Positions 6,784-50,336 of a DNA stretch of 64,000 bases are shown here, piece by piece (positions within the stretch are counted from its first letter, which is position 1; the number at the start of each line of letters is the position of its first letter). Source of the DNA: Streptomyces sp. H39-S7. GTDB taxonomy: Bacteria; Actinomycetota; Actinomycetes; Streptomycetales; Streptomycetaceae. The notes beneath the pieces are model-generated. The model ran no database searches and had not been told where the DNA came from. It saw nothing but the letters and a program-made list of their open reading frames with translations. The translations under genes were made by a program, and so were the position numbers. The stretch covers positions 182,094 to 246,093 of the forward strand of contig NZ_JAPVLU010000002.1 in assembly GCF_027158205.1 (NCBI RefSeq), written 5' to 3'.

Positions 6784-7997
6784 GAAACTCCGCCGCCCTC
6801 GGGCGTACCGCCGCCGTCGCGCTGGCGGCCCTGCTCGCCGTGCTGCCGGCCACGTCCGCGCGCGCCGACTCGATCCGCGACGCGGAGTGGACGCTGGACG
6901 CGATGCACGCCCACGACGCCTGGCGCACCAGCCAGGGCGCGGGCGTCACCGTCGCCGTACTGGACACCGGCGTCGACGCCACCCACCCCGACCTGGCGGG
7001 ACAGGTACTGCCCGGCAACGACCTCATCGGCTTCGGGGCCGGGCCCGGCGACAGCACCTGGGCCAAGCACGGCACCGGCATGGCCGCGATCATCGCCGGC
7101 CACGGCCACGGCCCGGGATACTCGCAGGGCGTCCTCGGTATCGCGCCCCGCGCCAAGATCCTGCCGGTCCGGGTGATCCTGGAGGAGAAGGACCCGCGGC
7201 GCGACGAAGCCCGCTCGAGCCGGGGCAAGGCGGTACCGGAGGGGATCCGCTGGGCCACCGACCACGGGGCCGGCGTCATCAACCTGTCGCTCGGCGACGA
7301 CAGCGCGACCGCCGCGCCCACGGCGGACTACGACAACGCGATCCAGTACGCCCTCAACAAGGGCGTGGTCGTCGTGGCGTCGGCGGGCAACGGAGGCGAG
7401 CAGGCGGACCGGGCCTCGTACCCGGCCGCCTACCCGGGAGTGATAGCCGTCGCGGCGGTGGACCGGGTCGGCGCGCACGCCTCGTTCTCCACCCGGCGCT
7501 GGTACGCCTCCGTCTCGGCGCCCGGGGTCGACGTGATCCTGGCCGACCCCAACCGCAAGTACTACGAGGGGTGGGGGACCAGCCCCGCCTCGGCGTACGT
7601 CTCCGGTGCGGTGGCCCTGATCCGCTCCGTCCATCCGAAGCTGAGCCCCGCGCAGATCAAGACGCTCCTGGAGAGCACCACCCGCGAACGCCCGGCCGGC
7701 GGGCGCAACGACGCGGTCGGCACCGGTCTGGTGGATCCGGCCGCGGCGCTCAAGGCGGCGGCCAAGCTCGAACCCCGGACCGAGGCGCCGGCCCCGGCGC
7801 CCTCCGCGCGGCGGTACTTCGGAGCCGGTCCGACGATCACGCTCTCACCGGCCGCGGACGCCGGCGGTCTCGGCGACGGCGTGGCGATCACCTGCGCACT
7901 GCTGGGCGGCGTCCTGGTCGCCGCGGCGGCACTGCTCTGGTTCCGCCCCCGCCTCGGCCGCCCGAGGCGCCGGGGTACGCACGGCATACCTACCTGA
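6780..7997 (+). CDS. Mycosin-like S8 subtilisin-family serine protease
   Basis: A 405-residue exported protease with a signal peptide (ALGRTAAVALAALLAVLPATSARA). The catalytic Asp is in VAVLDTGVDATHPDL, the His in KHGTGMAAIIAG, the oxyanion region in VVVASAGNGG and the Ser in GTSPASAYVSG. A C-terminal hydrophobic helix (ITCALLGGVLVAAAALLWF) and an Arg-rich tail would anchor it in the membrane with the catalytic domain outside. This is the layout of type VII secretion mycosins (MycP), yet no EccB/EccC/WxG gene is nearby. The GTG start overlaps the previous stop codon, giving translational coupling. Its last 8 bases overlap the convergent serine hydrolase gene. Confidence 0.88.
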   Translation: MRNSAALGRTAAVALAALLAVLPATSARADSIRDAEWTLDAMHAHDAWRTSQGAGVTVAVLDTGVDATHPDLAGQVLPGNDLIGFGAGPGDSTWAKHGTGMAAIIAGHGHGPGYSQGVLGIAPRAKILPVRVILEEKDPRRDEARSSRGKAVPEGIRWATDHGAGVINLSLGDDSATAAPTADYDNAIQYALNKGVVVVASAGNGGEQADRASYPAAYPGVIAVAAVDRVGAHASFSTRRWYASVSAPGVDVILADPNRKYYEGWGTSPASAYVSGAVALIRSVHPKLSPAQIKTLLESTTRERPAGGRNDAVGTGLVDPAAALKAAAKLEPRTEAPAPAPSARRYFGAGPTITLSPAADAGGLGDGVAITCALLGGVLVAAAALLWFRPRLGRPRRRGTHGIPT

Positions 7998-8934
7998 ACG
8001 CCCCCACCGCCGCCTGCGCGACGTCCTCGGCCAGGGCGATGCCCGCGGCCTGCGTGAGGTGTCCGCTGGACAGGACCGCGACGAGGTAGGTGTTCCCGTC
8101 CGCGGCGACCCGGCCGATGCTGTTGATGTCCCACCGCCCGGTCGTGGTGCGCCGCAGCCAGCCGTTCTTGAGCGCGGTGTCGGACGCCGTCTCGGCGGCG
8201 GCCGTGACCCCCCAGTCCTGGCCGACGGATATCCGCTCCATCAGCCCCCGCAGATACGCCCGCGAGCCGGCGTCCAGCGGCGGGTCGTCACCGAACACCG
8301 CCCGCAGCAGCCGCAGCTGGTCCGCGGCCGTGGTCCTGGTGAGCCCCCACAGGTCGCCGTCGCCGCCCACGGTCCCGGTCAGCCCGAGCCGTTCATTGGC
8401 CTCGGCGAGGCCGTCCGCGCCGTCCACGGCGTGCCACAGGGCGGTCGCGGCCTCGTTGTCGCTCTGCTCGATCATGACGGTGGCGTACGCCTTCTCCTGG
8501 GCGGTGAGGTCACGCCCGGCGTCCTGTGCCCGCAGCAGCAGCGCCGCGAGGATGTCGACCTTGACGATGCTCGCCGTGTCGTACGTCCCGTTCCCGTACA
8601 CCGCCTGCGCGCCGGACGCGGTGTCCAGCACGGCGACGGAGAAGTCGGCGGCGGTCGCGCCTGCCACCGCGCCGAGCGCGTCGCTCAGCTGCTCGTCCCG
8701 GTCCGCGATGTCCACGCTCCGCGCCCCCTCCCCGGCCGGCTGCTCCGTACCCGTCGAGGATGCCGCGGGGACGGCCGGACGCGCCACTGCCCCGGCCGGC
8801 GGCCGCGCCATCGCGTGGACGCCCGCTATGACCCCGCCACCCGCCAGTACGACGGCCGCGATGGTCGCGATGATGGCGGTACGGCCGGTACGACGGGTCC
8901 GGTGCCGGTTCTGAGCTCGCATTCCTTCGAGCAT
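7990..8934 (-). CDS. Exported serine hydrolase with class A beta-lactamase fold
   Basis: About 314 residues, with an N-terminal transmembrane or signal segment (TAIIATIAAVVLAGGGVIAG) after a basic start, a low-complexity linker and a penicillin-binding/class A beta-lactamase domain. The nucleophile motif is SIVK (SxxK), followed by QSDNEA (SDN motif) and KNG in place of KTG near the C-terminus. The altered third motif and the lack of a clear Glu166-type omega-loop motif argue for a DD-peptidase or esterase-like role outside the membrane rather than a true beta-lactamase. ATG at 8922 is an alternative start. Confidence 0.8.
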   Translation of the reverse strand: MLEGMRAQNRHRTRRTGRTAIIATIAAVVLAGGGVIAGVHAMARPPAGAVARPAVPAASSTGTEQPAGEGARSVDIADRDEQLSDALGAVAGATAADFSVAVLDTASGAQAVYGNGTYDTASIVKVDILAALLLRAQDAGRDLTAQEKAYATVMIEQSDNEAATALWHAVDGADGLAEANERLGLTGTVGGDGDLWGLTRTTAADQLRLLRAVFGDDPPLDAGSRAYLRGLMERISVGQDWGVTAAAETASDTALKNGWLRRTTTGRWDINSIGRVAADGNTYLVAVLSSGHLTQAAGIALAEDVAQAAVGAFR

Positions 8935-9035
8935 GGGGACCGAATCTGCGCGCACTCTGAGACGCGGATGAACAACCCGTAAGAAAACGGGCGGGACGCC
9001 GGGACACAGCCGCCAACGGGTGCCGGCCGGGTCCA

Positions 9036-9053
9036 TATACGCTGCTCAGCGTG
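9036..9053 (+). promoter_or_regulatory. Probable -10 element and leaderless start of the SseB-like gene
   Basis: TACGCT at 9038-9043 fits the TANNNT -10 pattern and lies seven bases before the GTG start. No Shine-Dalgarno sequence precedes that GTG, so transcription probably begins at or next to it, giving a leaderless mRNA. Confidence 0.4.
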
Positions 9054-9785
9054 TCACTCAAGAATATCCCCGACCCTGGCTTCGCGGACGACGACGGTTC
9101 GGCCGACGCGGCGCTGGCCGCCGCGCTCGCCGCCTACGCCGCGGACGGCCGGGCCGAGCCCGGCGTCCTCGCCGCGCTCCCCGGCGCCCGGCTGCTGGTG
9201 CCCGTCGTCGCCGTCCTGGGGGAGGCCGAGACCGGACCCGACGGCCTGCGCCGCGAGAAGACCAGCGACATGGCGGTGCCCACCATCGAGGCCGCCGACG
9301 GACGGCGGGCACTGCCCGCCTTCACCTCCGTCGCCTCCCTCGCCCGCTGGCGCCCCGACGCCCGCCCGGTCGCCGTACCGCTGCACCAGGCACTGCGGGC
9401 CCTCGCGCACGAGAAGGCCGACACCCTGCTGATCGACCTGGCGGGACCGGCCCCGTACGCCCTCACCGGCCCGGCGCTGCGCGCCGTGGCCGAGGGGCGC
9501 GAGCACGTGGAACCGCTCGCCGATCCGGAGGTGCTCGGCGCGCTGCGCGCGGCCGTCGCCGCGGAACCCGGTGTGCTGCGCGCGTACCTGTCCCCGGCGG
9601 GCGACTCGGACGGCACTCTCGGCCTGGTCCTCGCCCAGGGCGCGGCCGTGGCCGAGGTGGCCCGGCGGATCGCGACCGCGCTCTCCGCCGACGAGGTGCT
9701 GCGGGCCCGGCTGGTCCGCGGGCTCGACCTCGCACTGCTGGGCGCGGACGCCGAGGTGTCGGGCACTCCGCTGTTCGCGCGCTGA
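9051..9785 (+). CDS. SseB-like protein
   Basis: The 244-residue cytosolic protein contains the SseB N-terminal-type domain: ALAAALAAYAADGRAEPGVL, then ARLLVPVVAVLGE, then KTSDMAVPTIEAADGRRALPAFTS. Actinobacterial proteins of this kind are common and mostly uncharacterised. The C-terminal half continues with an alpha/beta pattern but no catalytic motif I can name. The start is a GTG without an upstream ribosome-binding site, matching a leaderless transcript. The gene stands alone between divergent and co-directional neighbours. Confidence 0.75.
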   Translation: MSLKNIPDPGFADDDGSADAALAAALAAYAADGRAEPGVLAALPGARLLVPVVAVLGEAETGPDGLRREKTSDMAVPTIEAADGRRALPAFTSVASLARWRPDARPVAVPLHQALRALAHEKADTLLIDLAGPAPYALTGPALRAVAEGREHVEPLADPEVLGALRAAVAAEPGVLRAYLSPAGDSDGTLGLVLAQGAAVAEVARRIATALSADEVLRARLVRGLDLALLGADAEVSGTPLFAR

Positions 9786-11245: not shown

Positions 11246-11392
11246 TGCAAATCGACCGGTCGGACACACCTGTGCCCGGCCCACAAGTGGAGGCTCCGAT
11301 CTCCCACCCGACCGACCGAGAGGTTGGCGGGTCCGGTCAGGCAGCGTTCTCCGGTGGATGGTTTCCCCCGGAGGCCGAACGCGCTGCCCGAT

Positions 11393-11466
11393 GCGCCCCG
11401 CGGTGTTCCGTGGCGGTGCTCCCGGTTTTGAGGAGCTCTGCCTGTGACCTGTATGGGGCGTTTTTT
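11393..11466 (+). promoter_or_regulatory. Attenuator-like leader of infC
   Basis: Within the untranslated leader of about 300 bases, GCGCCCC (11393-11399) can pair with GGGGCG (11455-11460), which is followed directly by six T residues. This gives an intrinsic-terminator-like structure with inner hairpins between the arms. Position and form recall the L20-responsive leaders upstream of infC-rpmI-rplT in Firmicutes. The resemblance is functional inference, since I see no primary-sequence match to that RNA family. Confidence 0.5.
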
Positions 11467-28264: not shown

Positions 28265-29524
28265 ATGGGGCACATCACTCGCAGGACCTTCGCCGTGGGC
28301 GCCATCGGCACCGCGGGCGCGGTGGCGGCGGCGGTCGCCACCGGGACACCCGCCGCGGCGGCCGTCACGGCACGGGACGCGGCACGGGAGCGGCCCGCGC
28401 GGCAGTTCCGCGGCATGTGGATCGCGACCGTCGCCAACACGAACTGGCCGTCCGCGCCCGGTCTGCCGGCCGCCGAGCAGCGGCGGGAACTGCTCTCGCT
28501 GCTGGACACCGCCGTCGAGCGCCGGCTGAACGCGGTGATCCTCCAGGTGCGGCCCACCGCGGACGCGCTGTGGGAGTCGCCGTACGAGCCGTGGTCGCAG
28601 TACCTCAGCGGGACCCAGGGCCAGGACCCCGGCTGGGATCCGCTCGGCACGGCCGTGCGCGAGGCGCACCGGCGCGGCCTGGAACTGCACGCCTGGTTCA
28701 ACCCGTACCGCATCGCCAACCACACCGACCCGAGCCGGCTCGTCCCGACCCACCCCGCCCGGCTGCACCCCGAGTGGGTCGTCCCGTACGGCGGGAAGCT
28801 GTACTACAACCCGGGGCTGCCACAGGTGCGCCGGTTCGTCCAGGACGCGATGCTCGACGCCGTGCGGCGCTACCCGATCGACGCGGTGCACTGGGACGAC
28901 TACTTCTATCCGTACCCGGTGGCGGGGCAGGCCTTCGACGACGACGCCGCGTACGCCGCCCACGGTGCCGGCTTCCCGGACCGGGCGGCCTGGCGGCGTG
29001 ACAACACCGACCGGCTGGTGCGCGAGACGGCTCTCCGCATCCAGCGGATCCGGCCGCGGACCCGTTTCGGGATCAGCCCCTTCGGGGTGTGGCGCAACCG
29101 GGCGACCGACCCGCTCGGCTCCGACACCACGGCGGGCGTCCAGACCTACGACGACCTGTACGCCGACACCCGCGGGTGGGTGCGGAAGGGGTGGATCGAC
29201 TACATCGTCCCGCAGGTGTACTGGAACATCGGGTTCCCGGCAGCCGACTACGCCAAGCTCGTCCCCTGGTGGGCGGACGTGGTCTCCGGCACGGGCGTCG
29301 ACCTGTACGTGGGGGAGGCGCTCTACAAGGTGGGCGTCGCGGGCCAGCCCGCGGCCTGGCAGGACCCCGCCGAGCTCTCCCGCCACCTCACCTTCGACCG
29401 GGACCACCCGCAGGTGCGCGGCAACGTCTTCTACTCGTCGACCCAGGTGGTGGCCGACCCGCTCGGCGCGATGACCCGCGTCGTCGCCGACCACTACGGA
29501 ACCTGCGCGCAGCCACCGCGCTGA
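28265..29524 (+). CDS. Tat-exported glycoside-hydrolase-like (GHL10/DUF187) protein
   Basis: The 419-residue product starts with a Tat signal (TRRTFAVGAIGTAGAVAAAV, cleavage near AAA). The domain then has RQFRGMWIATVANTNWPS, LNAVILQVRPTADALWES, LELHAWFNPYRI and VDAVHWDDYFYPY-like segments (PIDAVHWDDYFYP), typical of the YngK/DUF187 glycosyl hydrolase-like family that acts on the cell wall or extracellular glycans. The Asp-Asp pair in WDDYF is the probable catalytic region. AGGGGG lies just before the ATG. A large terminator follows. Confidence 0.88.
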   Translation: MGHITRRTFAVGAIGTAGAVAAAVATGTPAAAAVTARDAARERPARQFRGMWIATVANTNWPSAPGLPAAEQRRELLSLLDTAVERRLNAVILQVRPTADALWESPYEPWSQYLSGTQGQDPGWDPLGTAVREAHRRGLELHAWFNPYRIANHTDPSRLVPTHPARLHPEWVVPYGGKLYYNPGLPQVRRFVQDAMLDAVRRYPIDAVHWDDYFYPYPVAGQAFDDDAAYAAHGAGFPDRAAWRRDNTDRLVRETALRIQRIRPRTRFGISPFGVWRNRATDPLGSDTTAGVQTYDDLYADTRGWVRKGWIDYIVPQVYWNIGFPAADYAKLVPWWADVVSGTGVDLYVGEALYKVGVAGQPAAWQDPAELSRHLTFDRDHPQVRGNVFYSSTQVVADPLGAMTRVVADHYGTCAQPPR

Positions 29525-29538
29525 CGCCCCGGGGCCTG

Positions 29539-29601
29539 GGGCCCGCGACAACCGCCGTGCCCGCCAAGTCCGCTCCCGGACACGGCGGTTGCCGCGGGCC
29601 C
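29539..29601. terminator. Long imperfect hairpin terminator
   Basis: Two 21-base arms pair with one mismatch (GGGCCCGCG...CCGTG with CACGG...CGCGGGCCC), enclosing 21 bases. They lie 15 bases after the glycoside-hydrolase-like gene. Confidence 0.75.
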
Positions 29602-29652
29602 GCCGCCGGATAATCGTTCGATCAAGGGCATCGCGCCTGTTAACGTCACGGT

Positions 29653-30387
29653 GTGGCGAAACTCAATCAGATCATCGCGGTCGAGAAGGGCGTCAAGTCC
29701 AAGTCCCATCAGGAACTGACCGCTTCCCATCACGACCTGCAGAAGCCCGCTCTGCTCTCCGGGATATCCCGGACCTACCAGCCGAAGGACGAGGAGGGCG
29801 AACAGCTGCCCCCCGAGTCGACCCGGGTCCAGATCAAGACCGAGGACGTGCTGCGGACGACCGCGGTCACCCTCACCCGGCTCTTCGACGTCACCGCCAC
29901 CAAGGACTGGGCGAACTGCGAGGCCCGCGCCGATGTGACGGTCGACGGTCGCGCGCTGGTGCGCGAAGTGCCGGTGTCGTACCTGCTGTTCCTGGAGAAG
30001 CAGCTGGTGGACCTGCACACGTTCATCCGCAAGCTCCCGGTGCTCGACGCCGCGGAGTCGTGGAACCTCGACCCGTCGAGTGACGCGTGGAAGACCGAGC
30101 CCGTACGCACGATCCGTACGAAGAAGGTGCCGCGCAACCACGTCAAGGCCGAGGCGACGGAGAAGCACCCCGCCCAGGTCGACGTGTACTACGAGGACGT
30201 GCCGGTCGGCTACTGGACGACCGTCAAGTTCTCCGGCGCCCTTCCCGCCCGGCGGGTCAACGAGCTGCTCGAGCGGGTGGAGAAGCTGCAGAACGCGGTC
30301 AAGTTCGCCCGCGAGGAGGCCAACAGCGCGGAGGTCACCGACCAGCGGGTCGGGGACGCCGTACTCGGCTACCTCCTCGGTTCGTAG
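29653..30387 (+). CDS. Conserved actinobacterial protein of unknown function
   Basis: A 244-residue soluble protein starting MAKLNQIIAVEKGVKSKSHQ, with helical N- and C-termini (LEKQLVDLHTFIRKLPVLDA; RRVNELLERVEKLQNAVKFA) around a beta-rich middle (VRTIRTKKVPRNHVKAEATE, QVDVYYEDVPVGYWTTVKFS). I recognise the sequence style from streptomycetes but no function. There is no signal peptide or catalytic motif. The start is GTG. It precedes the non-coding locus with the tRNA-like modules and ends in a small terminator hairpin. Confidence 0.75.
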   Translation: MAKLNQIIAVEKGVKSKSHQELTASHHDLQKPALLSGISRTYQPKDEEGEQLPPESTRVQIKTEDVLRTTAVTLTRLFDVTATKDWANCEARADVTVDGRALVREVPVSYLLFLEKQLVDLHTFIRKLPVLDAAESWNLDPSSDAWKTEPVRTIRTKKVPRNHVKAEATEKHPAQVDVYYEDVPVGYWTTVKFSGALPARRVNELLERVEKLQNAVKFAREEANSAEVTDQRVGDAVLGYLLGS

Positions 30388-30406
30388 GCGCCACACCCAA
30401 CAGACC

Positions 30407-30428
30407 CCCTCCGCCTGTGTGCGGAGGG
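30407..30428 (+). terminator. Hairpin terminator before the tRNA-like locus
   Basis: CCCTCCGC (30407-30414) pairs perfectly with GCGGAGGG (30421-30428) across a CTGTGT loop, 20 bases after the preceding stop codon. Confidence 0.65.
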
Positions 30429-30473
30429 TGCGCGAGGAGCGCAAAGCTCAGTTTGAAGCTTGTCGTGACGACG

Positions 30474-30546
30474 CGGTTCCAGTGGGGGTTCGAGTCCCTC
30501 TCCCGGCACCACCGGCCGGGGTAGCCCAACTGGCAGAGGCAGACCG
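30474..30546 (+). ncRNA. Circularly permuted tRNA-like module A
   Basis: Read in order, the module holds the 3' half of a tRNA and then its 5' half. CGGTT (anticodon-stem 3' strand), a 5-base variable loop, a T arm (GGGGG-TTCGAGT-CCCTC), the acceptor 3' strand TCCCGGC, discriminator A and an encoded CCA come first. After a 3-base linker come the acceptor 5' strand GCCGGGG, T8-A9, a D arm with GG in the loop, one base, and GACCG. The acceptor strands pair 7/7 (one G-U), GACCG/CGGTT pairs 5/5 (one G-U), and the latter extends by two more pairs outward. Every spacer has the canonical length. The two free ends lie where the anticodon loop should be, so no anticodon can be read directly. Confidence 0.7.
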
Positions 30547-30617
30547 CGATCAATCTCAGACTCTTGCTCCAGACTCAGCATTCGCCGCCGATCGCCGGAT
30601 CCACGGGTTCGGGCTTG
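30547..30617 (+). other. Linker between the two tRNA-like modules
   Basis: This stretch contains no ORF with a ribosome-binding site. It has two close copies of CAGACTC (near 30556 and 30569), and TTGCTCC (30564-30570) could pair with GGAGC at 30436-30440 upstream of module A, closing a long-range stem around it. The role is unknown. Confidence 0.4.
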
Positions 30618-30693
30618 GTCGTCAGGTGCCGGTTCGAATCCGGTCCGCCGCTCTCCTTCCTGCGGCGGTAGTTCAATGGCAGAACAAGTCGAC
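30618..30693 (+). ncRNA. Circularly permuted tRNA-like module B (tRNA-Gly-like acceptor)
   Basis: A T arm (GCCGG-TTCGAAT-CCGGT), acceptor 3' strand CCGCCGC and discriminator T precede, after a 9-base linker, the acceptor 5' strand GCGGCGG, T8-A9 and a perfect D arm (GTTC-AATGGCA-GAAC). The acceptor strands pair 7/7 and the D stem 4/4. G1-C72, C2-G71, G3-C70 and U73 are bacterial glycine identity elements. No CCA is encoded. The anticodon stem is less certain: CGAC/GTCG gives four pairs but with non-standard spacing. The inside-out order is the same as in module A, 110 bases upstream. Confidence 0.6.
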
Positions 30694-30749
30694 GTGAAAC
30701 TGACCCGCACCCCATCGCGCCGGCGTGTGCATATGGGCGGCATCAACAG

Positions 30750-30780
30750 GGGCCCGGGAGCTGGACACGCTTCCGGGCCC
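30750..30780 (+). terminator. Hairpin terminator after the tRNA-like locus
   Basis: A 12-bp stem (GGGCCCGGGAGC with GCTTCCGGGCCC, one G-U pair) and a 7-base loop lie about 55 bases after module B. With the hairpin at 30407 it brackets the locus as a separate transcription unit. Confidence 0.7.
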
Positions 30781-30855
30781 TGCTCCATGTCCACGGCGCC
30801 GCCGCCCGGCGGCGTGGCCGGGGCGGCCGGGGGATTCGGCTAGCCTGAGGGCACA

Positions 30856-32010
30856 ATGAACCGTTTGACGACGTCATCGGGTGCGTACGACCTCACCCGC
30901 TTCCCCGAGGACCCCCGCGACAGGCTCCGTGCCTGGGACGCCTCCGACGAGTACCTGCTGCGGCACCTGGACGGCATCGACGCGGAGCCCGTGGACCTCT
31001 CCGGCACCGTCGTCGTGCTGGGCGACCGGTGGGGCGCGCTGGTCACCGCGCTCGCCGCGCACCGGCCCGTATCGATCACCGACTCCTACCTGGCCCAGCA
31101 GGCGACCCGGGCGAACCTGGCGCGCAGCGGGGCCGGGGCCGGCGCGGTGCGGCTGCTCTCGGCCATGGACCCCGTCCCTGACCGCATCGACGTCCTGCTG
31201 GTGCGGGTGCCCAAGAGCCTCGCCCTGCTGGAGGACCAGCTGCACCGGCTCGCACCGCGCCTCCACGCGGGCACCGTCGTCGTCGGCACCGGGATGGTCA
31301 CCGAGATCCACAGCTCTACGCTCACCCTGTTCGAGGAGTTCATCGGCCCGACCAGGACGTCGCTGGCCGCGAAGAAGGCCCGGCTGATCTTCAGCACGCC
31401 TGCCGCCGCGCCCACTCGCACGGACAGCCCGTGGCCGCGCACGTACGAGCTGCCCGCCGACGTCGGCGCGGCCTCCGGCCTGGCCGTCACCAACCACGCG
31501 GGCATCTTCTGCGCGGAGCGCCTCGACATCGGCACCCGCTTCTTCCTGCGGAACCTCCCGCAGCGCCAGGGCCCCGAGCGCGTCGTCGACCTGGGCTGCG
31601 GCAACGGGGTGGTCGGAACGGCCGCGGCCCTGGCCGACCCCGGCGCCGAGGTGACGTTCATCGATGAGTCCTACTCCGCGGTGGCCTCGGCCGAGGCCAC
31701 CTTCCGGGCCAACACCGGACCGGACGCCAAGGCCGAGTTCGTGGTGGGCGACGGCCTGTCGGCCGTGCCCGCCGGGTCGGTGGACCTGGTGCTGAACAAC
31801 CCGCCGTTCCACAGCCACCAGGCGACCACCGACACGACGGCCTGGCACATGTTCACCGGCTCCCGCGACGCGCTGCGCACCGGGGGCGAGTTGTGGGTCA
31901 TCGGCAACCGGCACCTCGGGTACCACGTGAAGCTGCGCAAGCTCTTCGGGAACTGCGAGGTCGTCGCGAGCGACCCGAAGTTCGTCATCCTGCGAGCGGT
32001 CAAACGCTGA
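30856..32010 (+). CDS. RlmG/RsmC-like rRNA guanine-N2 methyltransferase
   Basis: The 384 residues form two domains. The N-terminal half (about 1-180) is a degenerate methyltransferase fold, and the C-terminal half holds the active Rossmann domain with SAM motif ERVVDLGCGNGVVGTAAALA and catalytic NPPF in LVLNNPPFHSHQ. This tandem layout is that of RsmC (16S G1207) and RlmG (23S G1835); the target base is not decidable here. It stands alone downstream of the tRNA-like locus, with an ATG start. Confidence 0.88.
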   Translation: MNRLTTSSGAYDLTRFPEDPRDRLRAWDASDEYLLRHLDGIDAEPVDLSGTVVVLGDRWGALVTALAAHRPVSITDSYLAQQATRANLARSGAGAGAVRLLSAMDPVPDRIDVLLVRVPKSLALLEDQLHRLAPRLHAGTVVVGTGMVTEIHSSTLTLFEEFIGPTRTSLAAKKARLIFSTPAAAPTRTDSPWPRTYELPADVGAASGLAVTNHAGIFCAERLDIGTRFFLRNLPQRQGPERVVDLGCGNGVVGTAAALADPGAEVTFIDESYSAVASAEATFRANTGPDAKAEFVVGDGLSAVPAGSVDLVLNNPPFHSHQATTDTTAWHMFTGSRDALRTGGELWVIGNRHLGYHVKLRKLFGNCEVVASDPKFVILRAVKR

Positions 32011-49811: not shown

Positions 49812-50336
49812 ATGAACGTGTCGCTGCGTGAAGACGAACTGACCCGGCTGCGTCCCCTGGTCGCCGCGGAGGCGGCCGCGGAAGCGGTCTCCGGCGGCAT
49901 CGAGGCCGCCGACCTGGAGCAGGCGGTGTGGCTGCGGCTGCTGGAACTGGCCGTGCCGCCGTCCGATCCGGCCCGCTGGCTGCGGGCGGCGGTGCGGCGC
50001 GAGGTGCGCGAGGCCGCCCGCCGGGTCCGCCGTGAGCTGCGGTACACCCCGGGCCGCGACCCGGCGGCCGACCGCGGGCCGTCCGTCGAGGAACAGGTGC
50101 TCGGCGCCGAGCAGCGGGCGGCGGTGCACGCCGCCGTGGAGCGGCTGCCGGGACGCTGCCCGCAGGTGGTTACCGCCCTGATGTCCCGGTCCGACCCCAC
50201 ATACCAGGAAATCTCCCGCGAGTTGGGAATCTCACAGGGCAGTATCGGCCCTTTGCGCTCGCGCTGCCTCGGCTGCCTGCGCTCGATCCTGAAATCCGGG
50301 GTTGCATCCCCGGCAAGACGGGGTAAGGCACGGTAA
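49812..50336 (+). CDS. Sigma-70-like (ECF-type) small regulator
   Basis: A 174-residue helical protein. Its C-terminus matches sigma region 4: AAVERLPGRCPQVVTALMSR, then TYQEISRELGISQGSIGPLR and SRCLGCLRSIL. The N-terminal half (DLEQAVWLRLLELAVPPSDP, ARWLRAAVRREVREAARRVR) looks like a shortened region 2. No anti-sigma gene is adjacent. It starts directly after a strong terminator with no good ribosome-binding site, so it may be leaderless or start elsewhere. Confidence 0.78.
   Translation: MNVSLREDELTRLRPLVAAEAAAEAVSGGIEAADLEQAVWLRLLELAVPPSDPARWLRAAVRREVREAARRVRRELRYTPGRDPAADRGPSVEEQVLGAEQRAAVHAAVERLPGRCPQVVTALMSRSDPTYQEISRELGISQGSIGPLRSRCLGCLRSILKSGVASPARRGKAR

Follow-up and report, generated by a model that had tools for sequence, protein, structure and literature searches.

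The locus studied here raises the question of what is encoded by a bacterial sequence in which the 3' half of a tRNA precedes its 5' half. In a window of 64,000 nucleotides from Streptomyces sp. H39-S7 (i.e., the whole stretch of DNA that was analysed), the plus strand reads between positions 30472 and 30548 as a circularly permuted tRNA cloverleaf, hereafter module A: an anticodon strand, a 5-nt variable loop, the T arm, the acceptor strand and A-CCA are followed, 3 bases later, by a 5' half composed of the acceptor strand, TA, the D arm and the second anticodon strand. The initial annotation had reported a permuted order with canonical arm lengths at 30474-30546, as well as CCG alone separating the CCA end from the 5' acceptor, and direct reading of the sequence bore out both points (ACCACCG at 30508-30514, then GCCGGGG). 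The anticodon stem that it had described, GACCG/CGGTT, is also present, but the proposed length of 5 bp was too short, the anticodon-stem equivalent comprising 7 bp with one G-U pair. At this site no tRNA was called by ARAGORN and no Rfam family reached its gathering score; the only linear tRNA detected by ARAGORN in the window is an ordinary tRNA-Ser (GGA) at 49908-49981. Elsewhere in the window, a match to the Streptomyces sRNA Scr1601 was found at 11251-11466 (119.9 bits, with a gathering score of 100).

Beyond the stretch first annotated, about 145 nt past module A, comes a second inside-out module with its parts in the same arrangement (module B), and the two modules start about 85 and 230 nt past the stop codon of a gene encoding a DUF7873 protein (Table 1). 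The anticodon stem of module B in this genome has, by eye, only about 4 bp. A predicted hairpin, H1, starts 19 nt past the stop codon, and a strong GC hairpin that may mark the end of transcription follows module B, while a terminator scan requiring a T run found none at the locus. In phage loci (e.g., L031, L032, L033 and L065) module B is repeatedly followed, by eye, by a strong hairpin whose loop resembles CGGATATGA, perhaps a terminator.

Table 1. Elements of the DUF7873 locus, in window positions.
Feature	Position	Strand	Sequence	Evidence or remark
DUF7873 gene, 244 aa, presumed protein partner of the RNA	29653..30387	+		Pfam PF25283 match; modules downstream
Hairpin H1, predicted 5' hairpin of the RNA	30407..30428	+	CCCTCCGC/GCGGAGGG	Predicted folds
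Possible hairpin H2	30429..30443	+	TGCGC/GCGCA	Formed in one predicted fold, absent from another
Stalk A, 5' strand, hexamer track	30444..30471	+	CTNAnn repeats in relatives	Motif counts vs shuffles
Module A, anticodon-stem equivalent, 3' strand	30472..30478	+	CGCGGTT	Pairs with 30542-30548; matched lower than swapped in 77/96 loci
Module A, variable loop	30479-30483	+	CCAGT	Sequence
Module A, T arm	30484..30500	+	GGGGG-TTCGAGT-CCCTC	Sequence
Module A, acceptor, 3' strand	30501..30507	+	TCCCGGC	7/7 pairs with 30515-30521; family test without acceptor selection
Module A, loop/linker closing the acceptor stem	30508..30514	+	ACCACCG	Discriminator A, CCA, CCG
Module A, acceptor, 5' strand	30515..30521	+	GCCGGGG	Pairing, covariation
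Module A, D arm	30524..30540	+		After TA; D-arm type shared with linear tRNA-Leu
Module A, anticodon-stem equivalent, 5' strand	30542..30548	+	GACCGCG	Pairs with 30472-30478
Stalk A, 3' strand, second hexamer track	30549..30579	+		Predicted pairing with 30444-30471; coupling 78/96
Stalk B, 5' strand	30583..30617	+		Coupling with 3' strand; matched lower than swapped in 91/96
Module B, anticodon-stem 3' strand and variable loop (approximate)	30618..30627	+		Matched lower than swapped in 88/96
Module B, T arm	30628..30644	+		Sequence; family covariation
Module B, acceptor, 3' strand	30645..30651	+		Pairs with 30662-30668; covariation
Module B, linker	30652..30661	+	TCTCCTTCCT	Sequence (locus L010)
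Module B, acceptor, 5' strand	30662..30668	+		Sequence; covariation
Module B, D arm	30671..30685	+		D stem 97.7% paired over 44 rows, not selected on
Module B, anticodon-stem 5' strand (approximate)	30686..30693	+		Covariation
Stalk B, 3' strand (approximate end)	30694..30745	+		Coupling; predicted fold
Strong GC hairpin, possible transcription end	30750..30780	+		Sequence

The protein matches PF25283 over residues 1-242 of 244 (E 3.5e-121; 403.9 bits against a curated cut-off of 27), a family for which Pfam gives no function. Among 61 related genomes, DUF7873 occurs in 37, including 12 of the 14 genomes of another family in the same order, and in a phylum-wide genome sample it was found in 6 of 296, all within the window's own family. 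Phage records with DUF7873 numbered 73 when this protein was the query and 88 with a Vibrio phage homologue, and 7,583 of the 7,999 database proteins scored matched at E <= 0.001; 15 Prevotella phage records likewise encode relatives. A single-chain structure prediction reached a pLDDT of 92.9 and a pTM of 0.70, structure comparison of the predicted fold gave no clear relative, and the pI is 6.4; RNA binding is presumed from the linkage to the modules and from the conservation of some basic residues. The genes that neighbour DUF7873 in the window, GHL10, HCDH and RlmG, stand beside it in 2, 3 and 1 of the 80 named-genome loci, respectively, and since they rarely recur, the cassette may move. 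With crude ORF calling, the largest cluster of neighbouring ORFs contained 11 of the 159 IMG/VR loci; among the 80 named bacterial loci the largest (65) overlies the RNA region itself, and the second largest, with 29 loci, lies on the opposite strand about 1.1 kb downstream.

The occurrence of the modules was assessed in 276 DUF7873 loci among the matches listed, duplicates included, from relatives (30), GenBank phages (7), IMG/VR (159) and named genomes (80), by scanning the 900 nt downstream of the gene in the 264 loci that were long enough. The detector demands T-stem and acceptor pairing and was run under a strict and a looser rule, modules 120-260 nt apart being counted as a pair. Under the strict rule, 149 of the 264 downstream regions contained a module pair, compared with none of 264 dinucleotide-shuffled, 264 reverse-complement, 264 coding and 257 upstream sequences; any module was found in 244/264, with control counts of 0 (shuffled), 0 (reverse-complement), 0 (coding) and 5/257 (upstream). 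The looser rule yielded 245 loci with any module (3, 11 and 4 in the first three controls, and 17/257 upstream) and 166 with a pair, the commonest inter-module spacing being 145 nt. Another 19 of the 264 loci had no module, and a still looser, uncontrolled search suggests longer linkers in some of them.

Both modules were present in the GenBank phages Arthrobacter Racecar, Gordonia Phendrix, Rhodococcus NiceHouse and a Klebsiella jumbo phage, and pairs were likewise found in Streptomyces relatives. One module was detected in Gordonia Ziko, Pseudanabaena Pam2, Vibrio K479 and two Rhizobium phages, and none downstream of DUF7873 in Microcoleus phage My-WqHQDG; two IMG/VR contigs (L118 and L119), which encode a protein with 97% identity to the one of Pam2, carry both. 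By sequence and covariation, the permuted heads and their pairing, the tandem arrangement and the place after DUF7873 are established for phages, Streptomyces and related actinobacteria.

Compensatory changes between the two halves in relatives, on whose presence the initial annotation had made its reading depend, were found. When candidates were chosen by T arm and D arm alone, i.e., without acceptor selection (328 candidates in 225 of 264 loci), 6 or 7 of the 7 acceptor pairs formed in 296 of the 328, against 13.3% for swapped halves. The remaining helices were evaluated in 96 RNAs (39 bacterial, 57 phage) taken from 161 two-module loci after spacing, linker and length filters and thinned by 7-mer sharing, a set that leaves out loci with none or one module and includes one doubtful row (L065); the D stem, the anticodon stem and the stalks are not selected for by the detector. 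In these matched-versus-swapped comparisons, which may gain from a common base composition, the pairing of a strand with its own partner was the more stable one, relative to swapped partners, in 77/96 RNAs for anticodon stem A (p 6e-13), 88/96 for anticodon stem B (p 6e-17), 91/96 for the stalk B strands (Mb x V; p 5e-16) and 78/96 for the stalk A strands (U x M1; p 3e-9). Taken separately, the stalk A strands were coupled in 44/57 phage RNAs, and in bacteria alone the count was 19/39, which is not significant. Acceptor scores were lower for matched than for swapped partners in 96/96 and 95/96 RNAs, values raised partly by the selection on pairing. As controls, the 5' acceptor strand of A against the 3' acceptor strand of B showed no coupling (50/96), M1 x V gave 53/96 (not significant), U x V 56/96 (p 0.007), and U x Mb, in which Mb overlaps M1, 67/96 (p 5e-5).

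For module B, an alignment was built from 44 of the 48 rows with 7-9 nt linkers, having dropped three in which an extra base separates acceptor and D arm, and L065 as spurious-looking. In these rows 99.1% of the cells were paired, against 70.7% after shuffling, 15 of the 16 pairs had changed on both sides, and the D stem, on which no selection was made, was 97.7% paired. Folds constrained to the acceptors and T stems lay at most 3 kcal from the free minimum in 89/96 RNAs; in the predicted folds, at least 8 stalk A pairs were present in 34/39 bacterial and 38/57 phage RNAs, and at least 8 stalk B pairs in 32/39 and 44/57. Two consecutive units, each consisting of a head and a stalk, are well supported by these results, the stalks by prediction and coupling; each stalk is predicted as an imperfect duplex beneath its anticodon stem. 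On both sides, module A is flanked by hexamer-periodic tracks (CTNAnn, often CTGAAACTGA); the motif of the 5' track occurs in 39/39 bacterial and 45/57 phage RNAs, where mononucleotide shuffles gave 0.1 and 2.5. The tracks may be a protein-binding repeat or form small internal loops in a ladder; by eye they resemble alternating Lys/Arg-Leu codons, and are interrupted by stops in phages.

The initial annotation had also held that relatives with an ordinary linear tRNA at this place would make the present copy a decayed remnant. ARAGORN does call a 'tRNA' 30-42 nt past the DUF7873 match in 34 of the 80 named Streptomyces/Kitasatospora loci, and four such calls that were drawn all take the 3' strand of hairpin H1 as acceptor. 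This pseudo-acceptor was fully paired (7/7) in 1/39 bacterial and 0/57 phage RNAs and had at least 6 pairs in 12 and 3, and in bacteria its pairing was 4.82 with matched and 4.89 with swapped partners; the inside-out acceptor was 7/7 paired in 38/39 and 53/57 RNAs, in rows selected for pairing. Since the pseudo-acceptor pairs no better than swapped partners, the linear-tRNA calls look like artefacts and an ordinary linear tRNA at the site was rejected. The apparently false calls (L200, L209, L212, L229 and 30 more loci) were of tRNA-Phe, -Leu, -Ala or of undetermined type.

A pattern scan of viral contigs for a T arm followed by a D arm of the module A type, in which 80 loci were examined among at least 120 stretches, separated two kinds of loci. 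Each of the 13 listed loci that have DUF7873 was permuted and lacked a linear tRNA call at the site, whereas 63 of the 67 listed without DUF7873 were not permuted; in these, ordinary tRNAs were called on both sides in 53 cases and on one side in 10. The remaining 4 of the 67 were two chance matches in tandem tRNA-Leu genes, L354, which comes from the contig of the DUF7873-bearing L051, and L320. The latter phage locus (about 7500-9100) carries both modules, the second recognized by eye, without DUF7873 within its 14 kb; its modules adjoin degenerate tRNA-like pieces and an ORF that we take to be GIY-YIG-like.

Among known RNAs, YrlA (RF02553) stands closest, and at a relaxed threshold it is the best Rfam match of both modules, with 27.5 bits for A and 22.8 for B. 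These values lie under the YrlA gathering score of 69, as do the Ro60-linked copies in relatives (best of any kind, 50.4), so that this cut-off does not help to tell the two apart, and at E <= 0.001 the model is unspecific, with matches in 51/61 relatives and in 7/14 control genomes, e.g., E. coli. According to one source, YrlA comprises a stem, to which its 5' and 3' ends contribute, and a tRNA-like domain that recalls the D, T and acceptor arms; Rsr (Ro60) is bound by the stem and PNPase by the domain, and DusA and TruB modify the RNA (PMC8394870). Another reports that the YrlA structure PDB 6CU1 can be superposed on tRNA by way of a circular permutation (PMC11472068). The view of the initial annotation that no permuted tRNA had been described in bacteria hence needs amending: by that second account YrlA is a circularly permuted tRNA mimic (PMC11472068), and the Ro60-linked YrlAs in relatives share the inside-out order.

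The likeness to YrlA lies in the inside-out head (T arm, loop-closed acceptor, D arm) and in a stalk made from sequences on both sides of the head, which is here predicted, with coupling in 91/96 (B) and 78/96 (A). No Ro60 match (TROVE, PF05731) was found at E <= 0.001 in the window's own genome, and Ro60 was found in 28/61 relatives. We compared the modules with 12 loci in which a TROVE match adjoins a YrlA match, using 15 heads, of which two have the same sequence over the stretch displayed, and omitting one weak match; the same detector found inside-out heads in 12/12. Three of the twelve (L420, L421 and L430) have two consecutive heads with a separation of 157-235 nt, a layout reminiscent of the DUF7873 pair. 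The partner gene, however, is Ro60 in those loci and DUF7873 here, and DUF7873 RNAs, unlike YrlA, are usually paired at a near-fixed spacing. The motif TACTTC 5' of the T arm, a YrlA trait as observed in the Ro60-linked copies of this analysis, occurs in 11/15 Ro60-linked heads, compared with 0/96 A and 1/96 B modules, whereas a hexamer track before the head occurs in 83/96 A modules and 1/15 Ro60-linked YrlAs. A 5-bp stem at the anticodon place was found, in equal windows, in 46/73 A, 77/91 B and 6/14 Ro60-linked heads (swapped: 20, 28 and 22%; 3/14 in a smaller YrlA window); the stem is thus evident in the DUF7873 modules and doubtful in the Ro60-linked heads, but as only 14 of the latter were available, this contrast is not drawn as a distinction. 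With a like architecture, another protein and other stalk motifs, the DUF7873 RNAs are therefore not filed as YrlA. tmRNA has a tRNA-like part without a decoding anticodon, a likeness that extends to permuted tmRNA; the modules differ from it by a complete D arm and by two heads, and no tmRNA model was among the 6 Rfam matches up to E 10 in 30380-30860.

Our favoured reading, held with moderate confidence, is that the two RNA units and DUF7873 likely form a tRNA-mimic scaffold held by this protein, i.e., a Y-RNA-like ribonucleoprotein. The gene and the RNA would be transcribed together, and DUF7873, perhaps oligomeric (a guess as to its state), would grip the stalks, of which stalk A bears the hexamer-periodic tracks. 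The heads would then recruit or sequester a tRNA-binding factor, which could be an RNase, a processing or modifying enzyme, or a host effector that attacks tRNAs; DUF7873 would stand in the place of Ro60, with the Y RNA that links Ro60 to PNPase as the model. The near-fixed spacing of the pair with paired controls at 0, the covariation of acceptors, anticodon stems and stalk B, the closeness of the constrained folds to the free minimum, the specificity of the pattern scan and the likeness to YrlA are consistent with such a scaffold. Against it stand the protein's want of a fold match and its pI of 6.4, the unspecific nature of the weak YrlA match taken alone, the 19/39 stalk A coupling in bacteria alone, the 19/264 module-less loci, the single-module loci, L320 without DUF7873, and the encoded CCA, which hints at acceptor ends cut open and is needless for a closed scaffold.

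The CCA also bears on an alternative that we regard as unlikely, in which RNase P and 3' processing cut the linker, leaving nicked tRNA-like acceptor ends with a real CCA; the heads could then be charged, and act either as donors devoid of an anticodon or as true decoys of tRNA enzymes. CCA is encoded in 14/39 bacterial and 27/57 phage RNAs for module A and in 4/39 and 33/57 for module B, and it is rarer in nearby linear tRNAs (31/172) than in the phage modules, which speaks for processing. A closed loop could not receive CCA later, so the encoded sequence seems selected, and it fits either mimicry of a CCA end inside the loop or real cleavage. CCA is nevertheless missing from about half of the phage and most of the bacterial RNAs, module A linkers across the family loci are most often 7-nt loops, and two Ro60-linked YrlA linkers also read CCA by eye. 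A U before the 5' acceptor, found in 101/192 linear tRNAs, favours processing in phages (43/57 B, 27/57 A), but in bacteria it occurs in only 10/39 (A) and 19/39 (B). Further points on the side of processing and charging are the discriminator of module A, which is A in 35/39 bacterial and 42/57 phage RNAs, and its D arm, a type that, among the linear tRNAs of the fetched loci (duplicates kept), belonged to 109 tRNA-Leu and 2 'Stop' calls and to no other isotype. LeuRS is not known to make use of the anticodon.

From the Leu-type D arm and the mostly A discriminator comes a charged-head version for leucine, which we consider a long shot: DUF7873 and the twin inside-out tRNAs would be a two-gene machine of phages and streptomycetes, in which RNase P together with CCA-end processing opens the transcript and leaves pieces held by base pairing, the heads having genuine acceptor ends, being charged (head A with leucine) and having an anticodon stem without an anticodon, on a DUF7873-coated stalk. 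If true, these would be the first bacterial and phage genes for a permuted, split, anticodon-less aminoacyl-tRNA.

Quite unlikely, in our judgement, is that the structure acts in cis as a 3' UTR element of the DUF7873 mRNA rather than as a free RNA, in autoregulation, mRNA protection or the sensing of tRNA enzymes. The start of H1 so close to the stop codon agrees with this, as does a promoter scan of 29450-30900, in which no promoter-like site was found with the sigma-70 consensus as the only one used; the structure, however, exceeds such a need, and L320 has both modules with no DUF7873 in its 14 kb.

Distinctly improbable is an anti-defence decoy, in which the heads would titrate host factors that attack or process phage tRNAs. 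Many phages carry the modules, in some of them the DUF7873 gene sits within a tRNA array, and an ARAGORN call was obtained in 90/166 phage loci, a count that is unfiltered and includes some calls within the RNA region itself. The remaining 76/166 phage loci had no ARAGORN tRNA call in the stretch examined, though, the heads offer no anticodon loop as a target for anticodon nucleases, and the modules are kept in Streptomyces chromosomes.

The initial annotation had concluded that the RNA either needs joining of its ends or is a tRNA mimic without an anticodon. Our results favour the mimic; end joining fares poorly, the anticodon stem running on into a predicted stalk, and no anticodon loop was seen on joining the ends, by inspection and folding. 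Permuted tRNA genes have been described for algae and one archaeon (34 genes), with BHB motifs at the junction as a described trait (PMC3978253). The modules resemble them in having the 3' half before the 5' half with a short linker, and some also share the encoded CCA of the archaeal ones. They differ by lacking an anticodon loop, with a predicted stalk instead, and by being a tandem pair tied to one protein family in bacteria and phages. A decoding tRNA matured by joining the ends at the anticodon and removing the linker has the permuted order and CCA in its favour but is very improbable, given that no anticodon loop was seen and that the stem leads into a predicted stalk across the family.

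Finally, decayed tandem tRNA genes or chance have a virtually negligible probability: tandem tRNA genes can imitate the pattern, but did so in only 2 of the 67 listed loci without DUF7873, so that tandem remnants were rejected, while module pairs at 149/264 against 0 in controls, covariation of acceptors, stems and stalks, and the 13 listed DUF7873 loci without a linear tRNA all oppose decay, which is refuted by the covariation, and on sequence evidence the modules are not decayed tRNA genes.

Among open-licence full texts, no literature naming DUF7873 or describing such a module pair was found, and within the literature searched, circularly permuted tRNA mimicry in bacteria had so far been represented by one RNA, the partner of Ro60. 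For annotators, the present loci come with a warning, as ARAGORN calls of tRNA-Phe, -Leu and -Ala at DUF7873 loci are apparently false and public annotations may carry them. The findings raise the questions of which tRNA enzyme sees an inside-out tRNA and how phages benefit from it. The DUF7873 modules constitute a second permuted tRNA-mimic system, apparently independent of Ro60, with twin heads at a near-fixed spacing and a protein family of its own; DUF7873 thereby gains a likely RNA partner, and a ribonucleoprotein is predicted in phages of seven host genera as well as in Streptomyces.
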